A stretch of DNA of 36,966 nt from a virus. The stretch is from positions 1 through 36,966 of the IMG/VR virus record IMGVR_UViG_3300032217_000478. One strand, 5' to 3'. Every line of letters starts with the position of its first letter. Position 1 is the stretch's first letter. The notes beneath the pieces were generated by a model, which saw only the letters and a program-made list of their open reading frames with translations, was not told where the DNA came from and did no database searches. Made by a program: the position numbers and the translations under genes. Shown piece after piece: positions 8,082 through 14,476 of the stretch.

Positions 8082-8096
8082 AACCCCACAACTAAA

Positions 8097-8119
8097 CAAC
8101 CAACCAACCAACCAACCAA
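8097..8119. repeat. CAAC tetranucleotide tract immediately upstream of a start codon
   Basis: CAAC is repeated five times plus CAA (8097-8119), and the next start codon follows at 8121. Shorter CCAA runs precede the genes at 7875 and 8466. As a tandem tetranucleotide in a leader it could change leader length by slippage. It also lacks any Shine-Dalgarno character. Confidence 0.85.
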
Positions 8120-9887: not shown

Positions 9888-10247
9888 ATGGATACATCAG
9901 CACTATTTGACAATGTTCGCAAGTGGGGAGTCGAGGTCGGCATCACAGGTTCCAATGGCAAGGGCACTCGACTGAAACAACTCGACAAGATGCTTGAGGA
10001 GGCCGAGGAGACTAAGTCCGCAGTGATTGCCCTGCACGAGGCTGGAGATGGCTCCAGAGCATGGGAAATCATCAGTGAGATCGAGGATGGCATTGGAGAT
10101 ACGATGGTCACCTTGATCCTCTTAGCAGAATTGCATGGACTCCGTGCTGAGGACTGCCTAGCCTCCGCCTACCGCATCATCTCCAGACGCACTGGAACCA
10201 TGATCGATGGGCAATTCGTTAAAAATTCACCAGACAACATACTATGA
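9888..10247 (+). CDS. MazG-like nucleotide pyrophosphohydrolase (119 aa)
   Basis: This all-alpha NTP pyrophosphohydrolase-type protein has the metal-binding acidic pattern in two helices: KMLEEAEETKSAV (about 34-46) and EIEDGIGDTMVTLILLAEL (about 65-83). Its ending, ISRRTGTMIDGQFVK, is typical of phage MazG-like proteins. These hydrolyse nucleoside triphosphates to monophosphates. Proposed phage roles are nucleotide-pool adjustment or lowering host alarmone signalling. It is coupled to the next gene by ATGA. Confidence 0.8.
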   Translation: MDTSALFDNVRKWGVEVGITGSNGKGTRLKQLDKMLEEAEETKSAVIALHEAGDGSRAWEIISEIEDGIGDTMVTLILLAELHGLRAEDCLASAYRIISRRTGTMIDGQFVKNSPDNIL

Positions 10248-10483: not shown

Positions 10484-11150
10484 TTTTTGGAGTCACGAAC
10501 TGCTCTGCCAGTGCTCCGAGTTTACTCGCCTGCTGGCGATTGCTCTGCTCAATTGGGCAGACGATGAGGGGTACTTTATGGCTAACCCAGTGGTGCTTCG
10601 CGGCAATCTATTCCCATTCGTGGATGATTCCAAGATGATTCCGAGATCCCTCCAAGACCTGTCGAGCGTAGGCTGGATTGAGTTGGCGGAGGACTCTCAT
10701 GGTCGAGCAATCGGTCGAGTGGTTAATTTCCTAAAGCACCAGCGAGTAGACAAGGGGAAACGCTCAATTATCAAGGACTTATGGCAATTCCAAGACGCAT
10801 CCACGACGATTCCAAGATCCATCCAAGACGCATCCAAGGAGGAAGGGAAGGGAAAGGAAGGGAAAAGGAAGGGAAAGGAATTGAGTGTGGTGGTCGAGCC
10901 ACCTTTCCAGTCTCCTGAATTTTGGAGTGCATGGGAGGAATGGGTAAAACATCGTAACGAGAAAAAGAAACCACTCACGGCATCCAGTGTTAAGCAGCAA
11001 TTCTCAGAAATGAAAACTATGGGAGAGGCTCGATCAATTGCCATGATCCGCCACTCAATCAAAAATGGATGGCAGGGACTGTTCGAGAATAAAGACTCAG
11101 CCGTAACGCCGATTAGGAAGCCACTAACCTCAGACCAATTTTCGATATGA
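10458..11150 (+). CDS. O-like replication initiation protein (230 aa)
   Basis: The start RIRTIKPDFWSHELLCQCSE, then FTRLLAIALLNWADDEGYF (about residues 23-41), then FPFVDDSKMIPRSLQDLSSV, is the conserved winged-helix region of phage replication proteins that sit before a DnaB-like helicase. The middle (about 126-140) is a Lys/Gly/Glu-rich linker encoded by a polypurine tract. The C-terminal part (FWSAWEEWVKHRNEKKKPLT to WQGLF) resembles DnaT/DnaD-type helicase-loading domains. It probably binds the origin with its N-terminal domain and loads the helicase with its C-terminal domain. The gene contains two 11-bp repeat arrays. Confidence 0.75.
   Translation: MRIRTIKPDFWSHELLCQCSEFTRLLAIALLNWADDEGYFMANPVVLRGNLFPFVDDSKMIPRSLQDLSSVGWIELAEDSHGRAIGRVVNFLKHQRVDKGKRSIIKDLWQFQDASTTIPRSIQDASKEEGKGKEGKRKGKELSVVVEPPFQSPEFWSAWEEWVKHRNEKKKPLTASSVKQQFSEMKTMGEARSIAMIRHSIKNGWQGLFENKDSAVTPIRKPLTSDQFSI
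10616..10659. repeat. 11-bp iteron array 1 (three clear units plus one degenerate)
   Basis: Consecutive 11-base units run without gaps: ATTCGTGGATG (degenerate), ATTCCAAGATG, ATTCCGAGATC, CCTCCAAGACC. They share the NWTCCAAGAYS consensus of array 2 at 10787-10841. An 11-base period is close to one helical turn, so a protein could bind the same DNA face in each unit. Eleven is not a multiple of three, so a simple protein repeat does not explain it. Confidence 0.75.
10787..10841. repeat. 11-bp iteron array 2 (five tandem units), candidate origin
   Basis: Five gapless units: ATTCCAAGACG, CATCCACGACG, ATTCCAAGATC, CATCCAAGACG, CATCCAAGGAG. Each matches the consensus at 8 or more of 11 positions. 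The array lies in the middle of the O-like gene and runs directly into the polypurine tract. In lambda, the iterons bound by O and the adjacent strand-asymmetric unwinding region lie in the middle of gene O. The layout here is the same. Confidence 0.8.
10836..10880. other. 45-base polypurine tract next to iteron array 2
   Basis: Bases 10836-10880 contain only A and G on the + strand. They are arranged in AAGG/GAAGGG blocks and encode a Lys/Gly/Glu linker. Such strand asymmetry can ease unwinding or form a triplex. Placed right after the iterons it is a candidate DNA unwinding element. Confidence 0.8.
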
Positions 11151-12388
11151 CAGACAACAAGGCAATGCCCAGCAGTTACCCTGCCGAGAAGGCAGTTATC
11201 TCATCCATGCTCCAGAGCAGTGCCATTGCCAGCAGAGGCAGGGCCGAGGGAATCGATACCGATTGCTTCTGGCATCCAACTACCCGCATCCTCAGCGAGA
11301 CTCTAGGCACTCTCCAGCGTAACGATGATGGTGAGGCGGATCTTATTACCCTCGTACAACAGTTGCAGGAGTCTGGAGATCTAGATCGATGCGGTGGCCC
11401 TGCGGAGGTCTACGAGGTTTACTCATACTCTCCGAGTCCTAGTGGCTGGACGGCATGGACTGATACGCTCAGGGAGATGAAAGCAAGGCGATTAGCCATT
11501 ACTGCGTCTCAGAGCCTCTCTGAGGCCGTTGATAGTGCCGAGGCTATACTGACTGCCAAAACAGCACTAGAAGCCCTTCAGAGGGCCATTACGGGCCAAA
11601 GAAGGGCCATTGGCTCAAAACAGGCATCTGCGGAGTTTATTTCTCAGTTCGAGGCTAACTACCATGCTGGGGATATCGCAGGCCAGAGTACTGGCATCGA
11701 GTGCCTAGACCAAATCTGCGGCGGGATGAGGGCAGGTGAGTTATGGGTTGTCGGCGGCAAACCAAGCAGGGGCAAGTCCGTACTCATGCTCCAGATCGCG
11801 GCTGAGGTCATCGGTGCTGGCAAGCCTGTGGCTATTTTTAGCCTCGAGATGATGGCACATGAAGTCATTGGACGACTGGTCTCCACTACTGCCAGACTGG
11901 ACTACGGATCGATCACCCAACCTCGAACTGCGAATAAGACCCAACTGAGCATCCTAAAACAGACGATTGGCAACCTTTCCACGGCTCCGCTTTGGATTGA
12001 CGCAACATCAAACCAGACCATCGATACCATCGTTGGCGAGGCAGAGAGGATCAGGGATATGCATGGCAGTCTTGATCTCGTAGTTGTGGATTATCTCCAG
12101 TTAATCAGGGGCAATCGGGGAAAGAATGAGTCCAGAGAAGAGGAAGTCGCCAGAGTCTCAGGAGGCTTGAAGCAGCTCGCTAAACTGCTCAAATGCCCTG
12201 TCCTATCAGCGACTCAGCTAAACGAGGCTAACCAGACCAGAGAGTCTAGGGCTATCGAACAGGATGCTGATGCGATCCTCTACATCTGCGATGACGGGAT
12301 AAAAGTTGGAAAACTACGGAATGGGAAACGAGATGATGTGCTTCCACTGCTCCTAGACGGCAGGATTCAGCGATTTTGCCATTCGTAA
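11147..12388 (+). CDS. DnaB-like replicative helicase (413 aa)
   Basis: This RecA-fold hexameric helicase has an N-terminal DnaB-like helical domain (residues about 8-120, starting SYPAEKAVISSMLQ). The helicase domain follows, with STGIECLDQICGGMRAGEL, Walker A GGKPSRGKS (203-211), SLEMMAHEV (232-240), Walker B DLVVVDYLQLI (Asp315), then SGGLKQLAKLLKCPVLSATQLNE and a closing EQDADAILYI. It is slightly shorter than bacterial DnaB (about 450-470 residues). It is coupled to the O-like gene by ATGA. With no phage polymerase or primase seen, it presumably recruits the host replisome. Confidence 0.9.
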   Translation: MTDNKAMPSSYPAEKAVISSMLQSSAIASRGRAEGIDTDCFWHPTTRILSETLGTLQRNDDGEADLITLVQQLQESGDLDRCGGPAEVYEVYSYSPSPSGWTAWTDTLREMKARRLAITASQSLSEAVDSAEAILTAKTALEALQRAITGQRRAIGSKQASAEFISQFEANYHAGDIAGQSTGIECLDQICGGMRAGELWVVGGKPSRGKSVLMLQIAAEVIGAGKPVAIFSLEMMAHEVIGRLVSTTARLDYGSITQPRTANKTQLSILKQTIGNLSTAPLWIDATSNQTIDTIVGEAERIRDMHGSLDLVVVDYLQLIRGNRGKNESREEEVARVSGGLKQLAKLLKCPVLSATQLNEANQTRESRAIEQDADAILYICDDGIKVGKLRNGKRDDVLPLLLDGRIQRFCHS

Positions 12389-13587: not shown

Positions 13588-14189
13588 CGCGTTTAGATCC
13601 AGCACCACAGATCCAGCCAGACTTGACGTATCAGGCAGATCCCAATCAACACTCATCAGCAAACCACCCGCAGTGGAGCTAGAGTGGCCCTAGAATCGCT
13701 TTGAATGCACCAGCAGTGTAATGATACCAGAAGCAGGATACGATGCGTCAGAATCAATCCTAGGAGCAATGTCAGGATCAGACAGGAAGGAATGAATAGG
13801 GAATCAATAGCCAGAAACAAAGATGGAATCGTTGGGAATCGCTTGGAGGCCGCGAAAACAAAAAATCACCGCACGCGAGGCCGATCCAGACTGCTCAGCT
13901 AGTTGATAGTGTTCGATGGAACGCTGTTCAGTCTCAATAAGCTATCTCAATTGTAGCCATGTAATACATACAACGTCAAGCTCAAAATAGGTAGGCCGTG
14001 GAACACTGATAAACACTAGGGTTTTTTGTGGAACACGTTCCGTATTATGTATATTGTTACAAGTTGTGATGGCGAATGTACATACACTATGCGTCCAGAT
14101 GGGGGGGGCGGGGGTCGGATTTGGATCGGGCCAAAAACCCCTGAGCGGTCAATCTCCCCTTTAAAAAATTCGCAATCGGGCCAATTGAC
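13588..14189. other. 602-bp non-coding control region between early and late genes
   Basis: No credible gene lies here. A 65-codon ORF at 13705-13902 encodes an Arg-rich product without structure and is not called. The region holds five GAATC words (13693, 13751, 13801, 13826, 13836). It also has three GGAAC sites, two of them palindromic: GGAAC-GCT-GTTC at 13918-13929 and GGAAC-AC-GTTCC at 14030-14041. GTGGAACAC occurs at 13998 and 14028, 30 bases apart. There is a G8-C-G5 tract (14101-14114), and ATCGGGCCAA at 14125 and 14175 just upstream of the late promoter. Likely uses are operators, a packaging site or an origin. Confidence 0.6.
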
Positions 14190-14224: not shown

Positions 14225-14476
14225 ATGCGTGGAGATTCCTATCAATTGCAGGGACAAATGGGCGGCAAGGTATTCACCTCTGCCAATGGTGCGGTGACTG
14301 GCAACTTTCGTTGGGTGCAGATCGTGAACGACACTGTATTCAGTGCGTTGGCTAGTAACATCGAGGATGGAAATAGCAAACTCATTACGATCACTCACCC
14401 TGCTGGTACTGGCATTGGTGGGATCATCACTGGGTTTACTGTTACCTCTGGCGTTGTTATTGGCTACTACGCTTAA
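14225..14476 (+). CDS. small virion-associated candidate, first late gene (83 aa)
   Basis: This 83-residue, beta-rich protein begins MRGDSYQLQGQMGGKVFTSA and then has Gly/Ile/Thr-rich strands (HPAGTGIGGIITGFTVTSGV). The ATG at 14225 is only 9 bases from the TAGCAG box, which would make the mRNA nearly leaderless. An alternative in-frame ATG at 14258 follows AGGGACAA and would leave a leader. It overlaps the tail gene by one base (TAATG). No family was identified. A small head or tail decoration role is plausible by position. Confidence 0.6.
   Translation: MRGDSYQLQGQMGGKVFTSANGAVTGNFRWVQIVNDTVFSALASNIEDGNSKLITITHPAGTGIGGIITGFTVTSGVVIGYYA

Follow-up and report, generated by a model that had tools for sequence, protein, structure and literature searches.

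A viral replication initiator gene with two internal arrays of gapless 11-bp units that probably form its origin

In phage lambda, the replication origin, ori-lambda, sits in the middle of the O gene (PMC7466680). For plasmid pSK41, the published account places the Rep boxes centrally in the rep gene, has them bound by the winged-helix domain of Rep, and reports that the linker encoded by the origin is dispensable and that the C-terminal domain recruits part of the replisome (PMC5703833). The mycobacteriophage RepA protein was described as necessary and sufficient, with the origin presumed to lie in or beside repA and repeats not found (Wetzel et al. 2020, PMC7157519). Here, we analysed a window of 36,966 nucleotides of viral DNA, the whole stretch at its full length, and we conclude that one of its genes probably encodes a replication initiator and also contains the cis-acting origin for it, based on gapless 11-bp units (Table 1). 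No description of 11-bp iterons in this initiator family was found in the literature searched, which left out most subscription journals.

Table 1. Features of the initiator locus, in window coordinates.
Feature	Position	Strand	Basis
Initiator gene, 230 aa	10458..11150	+	PHROG families, AlphaFold2 model, fold matches
Array 1, four contiguous 11-bp units	10616..10659	+	Repeats, synonymous shuffles, codon identity
Array 2, five contiguous 11-bp units, in linker codons	10787..10841	+	Repeats, shuffles, codon identity
45-base pure purine tract, directly 3' of array 2	10836..10880	+	Sequence, IMG/VR 19-mer scan, glycine codons
DnaB-type replicative helicase gene	11147..12388	+	Pfam DnaB_C 7e-48, DnaB 3e-9

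In a profile search, the N-terminal domain of the initiator protein matched PHROG families 1408, 16167 and 2149 (E values of 3e-25, 4e-25 and 7e-18), all labelled 'replication initiation protein' and representing the gene's own family. PHROG 5718, labelled HNH endonuclease, also matches this domain, and annotated HNH endonuclease genes adjoin the initiator gene in several Pseudomonas, Bordetella, Mycobacterium and Gordonia phages (records H38, H42, H51, L354 and others). The AlphaFold2 model shows the N-terminal domain (residues about 1-97, pLDDT >90) as a predicted winged helix with helices alpha1 (21-33), alpha2 (44-51) and alpha3 (60-70) and wing strands 74-78 and 84-88, followed by a low-confidence linker, whose codons hold array 2 and the purine tract, and then by C-terminal helices. 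Foldseek matches of the N-terminal model are winged-helix proteins, with the pSK41 Rep initiator among the best, and the fold suggests that alpha3 is the recognition helix. The DnaB-type helicase gene lies directly 3' of the initiator gene. In Marinomonas phage P12026, the order is initiator, P-like protein, DnaB. A MazG-like pyrophosphatase gene (PHROG 715) occupies window positions 9888-10247, two genes 5' of the initiator.

The two 11-bp arrays and the 45-base purine run were found exactly where the original prediction had placed them. Array 1 had been described as three clear units and a degenerate one; the count of four units holds, but the first unit is an inverted copy rather than a degenerate one, since its core TCGTGGA is one mismatch away from TCTTGGA, the reverse complement of TCCAAGA, and this inverted unit is exact (TCTTGGA) in homologues L002 and L003. 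The array 1 cores occupy 10618-10624, 10629-10635, 10640-10646 and 10651-10657, and the array provides the codons of residues 53-68, running into and spanning most of the predicted alpha3. The array 2 cores start at 10789, 10800, 10811, 10822 and 10833 and read, in order, TCCAAGA, TCCACGA, TCCAAGA, TCCAAGA and TCCAAGG. When the gene was shuffled among synonymous codons 20,000 times, the array 1 score was reached in 251 shuffles, the array 2 score in 16, and both together in a single one. The window contains 18 copies of TCCAAGA where 7 would be expected, and a two-unit pattern allowing up to 3 mismatches has 12 matches, 7 inside the two arrays and 5 isolated; the window scan detected no tandem array of TCCAAGA units outside the initiator gene.

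Elsewhere in the window, a tetranucleotide CAAC repeat of about 7.8 copies lies at 8089-8119. The segment 13335-14224, between the early genes and the genes at 14225 and 14476, contains short direct repeats (GGAATCAATAG twice near 13789 and GGAATCGCTTG-like near 13825), along with a run of eight G around 14100, and is possibly a regulatory or packaging region. Searches of the window found no Rfam family and no tRNA. A cumulative GC skew check, also part of the original prediction, gave no inflection at the arrays, the skew climbing over the whole window; as an origin marker it was discarded, the detrended minimum (17.4 kb) and the maximum (left end) both falling away from the arrays.

To extend the analysis to homologues, four collection scans were combined with earlier loci, yielding 339 genes, of which 234 were non-redundant after near-copies were dropped at roughly 90% DNA identity; collection relied on conserved peptide patterns, and the set does not sample the homologues at random. 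Autocorrelation over the 234 genes peaks at lags 11, 22 and 33 in both array regions. Compared with synonymous shuffles, lag 11 reached p<=0.01 in 34% of the genes in the array 1 region, where lags besides 11 and 22 did so in 0-3%, and in 44% in the array 2 region, where the other lags passed in 1-17%, with a maximum at lag 10 to which repeats of the purine tract contribute; control regions passed in 3-4%. Period 11, with its multiple 22, thus stands out clearly in array 1, and in array 2 it is the strongest one. With a unit caller, the arrays of 176 of the 234 genes beat all 40 synonymous shuffles, and 151 of these 176 carry the unit in array 1 as well as in array 2, for the most part at gene nucleotides 160-215 and 330-390. 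Homologues devoid of 11-bp periodicity had been named in advance as what would speak against the proposal, and about three quarters of the set do not behave this way; the remaining 58 fail the array test, with no alternative repeat period standing out among them.

The closest relatives illustrate how the units vary. L002 (77% identity) has the same units as the window gene in more perfect form, and in L003 (62% identity) two array 2 units are inverted (TCTTGGA.ATGA.TCTTGGA) and both exact, so that the site is retained while the peptide is altered. In L005 and L006 (33-37% identity), another unit, ACGCGTGA-like, occupies both array positions and is followed by the same purine run. Marinomonas phage P12026 (gp37) and Enterobacter phage Tyrion (gp43) carry 11-bp units in matching gene positions; their records annotate the initiator as a protein alone, with no annotation of the arrays within the gene. 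The signal was detected in prophages of Verrucomicrobiota, Pseudomonadota, Actinomycetota, Planctomycetota, Gemmatimonadota, Thermodesulfobacteriota (as the record is classed) and Fermentibacterota, and in none of the five Bacteroidota members. Mx8 p19 (L359:1501-2652) has no 11-bp array, and by eye its linker region contains a candidate GIY-YIG/T5orf172-type insert (WVYFVRAESGGPVKIGTA...). A further 11-bp group, the third in the gene and made of the same units, occurs in 28 homologues (L204, L231 and L264 among them) at gene nucleotides 35-95, in codons around helix alpha1. Between 27 and 44 plasmids hold a relative, phage-plasmids and prophage insertions being pooled in this figure.

The purine tract is conserved along with the arrays. 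An exact scan of IMG/VR with a 19-mer from it hit 25 stretches; genes of the initiator family account for at least 22 of these hits, whereas L016 and L030 are unrelated to that family. The tract peptide consists of E, G, K and R, and 92% of glycine codons in the charged linker have a purine in third position, versus 45% elsewhere, indicating a preference for purines stronger than the peptide alone would require. An AT-rich unwinding region was considered and rejected: the tract is G-rich and of average stability (mean step energy of -1.37 versus -1.34 for the window) and not thermally weak. A G-quadruplex was also considered and set aside; G4Hunter scores are high (median 1.27), but only 13% of genes score above their synonymous shuffles (p<=0.05), meaning that the scores mostly follow from the peptide. 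In L007, L008, L354 and L357, the pure purine run is replaced by tandem 7-8-bp G-rich repeats 3' of array 2 (GGGAACA, GGGATCA, GGGGAACA and GGAACAGA). We consider the tract a candidate opening or loading element.

Array 2 lies mid-gene and adjoins an asymmetric tract that is conserved, an arrangement like that of ori-lambda. This position bears on the most serious alternative, in which the arrays are operators for repression or tuning of their own gene, or a titration or incompatibility locus, and replication starts elsewhere. This alternative is unlikely in our judgement: the protein is classed as a replication initiator and the window scan found no array of the unit 5' of the gene. On the other side, sites within an early gene could block transcription, array 1 stands away from the purine tract, and iteron systems often double as copy-number control.

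Comparison of the units across homologues revealed extensive diversity. The 148 labelled genes fall into 16 unit classes, defined from the arrays themselves and approximate in number because similar cores were merged by hand; they include TCGACGA, ACGCGT, TCGCCGA, TCACTGA, TACCGGA, TACCGTA, TCGCGA, TCCAAGA, TCCGGA and TCCCCGA. Over 598 units and 13 cores, the pattern is T, C or A, three variable bases, G and A, and the unit sequences are mostly TCNNNGA-like pseudo-palindromes. The two arrays of a gene match each other: called separately, they share a core in 78% of 83 genes versus 2% between different classes. Sixteen classes imply a bare minimum of 15 switches, and 38 changes are needed on a tree built without the array 1 codons, in which many forks are poorly resolved. 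Differences in class go along most strongly with differences at M60, R63, K101, D98 and P62. M60, P62 and R63 belong to the predicted helix alpha3, an association that is partly trivial because array 1 encodes them, and residues 98-101, encoded by neither array, constitute its less trivial part.

These class changes weigh on a second alternative, in which the arrays do serve as the origin but their binder is a host protein, or a phage protein different from the initiator. TCNNNGA pseudo-palindromes could suit other dimeric proteins. Yet the class has changed many times while the gene remained the carrier, which suggests a reader evolving with the gene, and the changes coincide most with residues 60-63 in the predicted recognition helix; another binder thus appears quite improbable. 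A bolder proposal, to which we give slightly less than an even chance, is that the DNA coding for the recognition helix doubles as a cluster of sites to which this helix binds, and that the switches (at least 15, or 38 by the tree estimate) generated many mutually incompatible origins. Array 1 would then be both specificity code and target, so that a switch would have to rewrite the helix, array 1 and array 2 together.

The synonymous-site test put forward with the original prediction of DNA-level selection was run on conserved residues, and it bore that prediction out, the arrays and the tract being far more conserved than the rest. In the TCCAAGA clade (4 sequences), codon identity reaches 0.96 for array 1, 1.0 for array 2 and 0.85 for the tract, compared with 0.54 for other parts of the gene; the corresponding values are 0.92, 0.88, 0.96 and 0.62 in the ACGCGT clade (30 sequences), and 0.93, 0.86, 0.95 and 0.76 in a TCGACGA clade (9 sequences), in which array 2 conservation is not significant (p 0.15). 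These data show that the arrays are selected as DNA, with synonymous codons strongly conserved in both of them and in the tract. A short charged linker is easily duplicated and the tract encodes E, G, K and R, but a periodicity of the protein (a repeated peptide in linker and helix), or a recent, functionless DNA slippage, is very unlikely, and the pure protein-level repeat was rejected. The signal is lost in shuffles that preserve the protein, and a period of 11 does not divide into whole codons. In addition, inverted units retain the site and not the peptide, codon identity is raised in the arrays, and relatives have unrelated unit sequences at the same positions.

Taken together, these results lead us to infer the following sequence of events for the initiator and its origin. 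The winged-helix N-terminal domain would bind the 11-bp units of both arrays, which are roughly palindromic. Their gapless spacing of about one helical turn would allow several protein copies to line up along the same face of the DNA and form a multi-protein complex. At the strand-asymmetric purine tract next to the arrays, this complex may open, or present, the DNA; the C-terminal domain may then bring in the phage DnaB helicase encoded just downstream for the origin to fire.

If this proposal is true, a likely origin can be read straight from the sequence for a very large phage group: prophages with the signal come from seven bacterial phyla, and genes of this kind occur, with their origin unannotated, in thousands of genomes. 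The 16 or more unit classes, each present twice per gene next to its probable reader, would constitute a data set on how winged-helix proteins change DNA specificity; unit classes would predict compatibility among phages or phage-plasmids, and small replicons would be on offer for many hosts.

How, then, does this locus compare with the described systems? Analysed with the same tools, lambda O shows four 18-bp iterons at gene nucleotides 349-433, with starts 20-24 bp apart, and array 2 here lies at nucleotides 330-384 of its gene. Both initiators have an N-terminal DNA-binding domain and repeated sites in the middle of their own gene, and in both a purine-asymmetric stretch follows the sites and a helicase-loading gene lies downstream, so that the parallel with the lambda layout drawn in the original prediction stands as regards sites and tract. 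By contrast, lambda has a single array of spaced 18-bp iterons and an AT-rich (A-rich purine) tract, versus two gapless 11-bp arrays and a G+A tract that is not AT-rich, and it has no copy of its site in the codons of the DNA-binding domain, where array 1 lies here. The designation 'O-like' did not survive a Pfam comparison: PF04492 (Phage_rep_O) matches lambda O at 6e-36 and gives no match to the initiator protein at E values up to 1. Membership in the lambda O group thus fails on sequence, unit length and tract.

The likeness to pSK41 Rep, of the RepA_N initiators of staphylococcal theta plasmids, would reside in the predicted winged-helix N-terminal domain, whose model weakly matches 4pt7, 4pql and 5kbj among many winged-helix proteins, in the central position of the sites in rep, in the origin-encoded linker, and in a C-terminal domain that would engage the replisome. 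pSK41 has four Rep boxes with A+T tracts, as opposed to 11-bp units, and the accessible part of its description mentions no second array in the codons of the DNA-binding domain (PMC5703833). Because the initiator protein has no Pfam RepA_N match, and no PDB sequence match by profile, RepA_N membership fails on sequence. Tandem sites selected as DNA in or near the initiator gene are one of the marks of an iteron-type origin, and the locus shows them. It is best explained as a device that would work like lambda O with ori-lambda or like pSK41 Rep, but with a pair of arrays and a purine tract lacking AT-richness.
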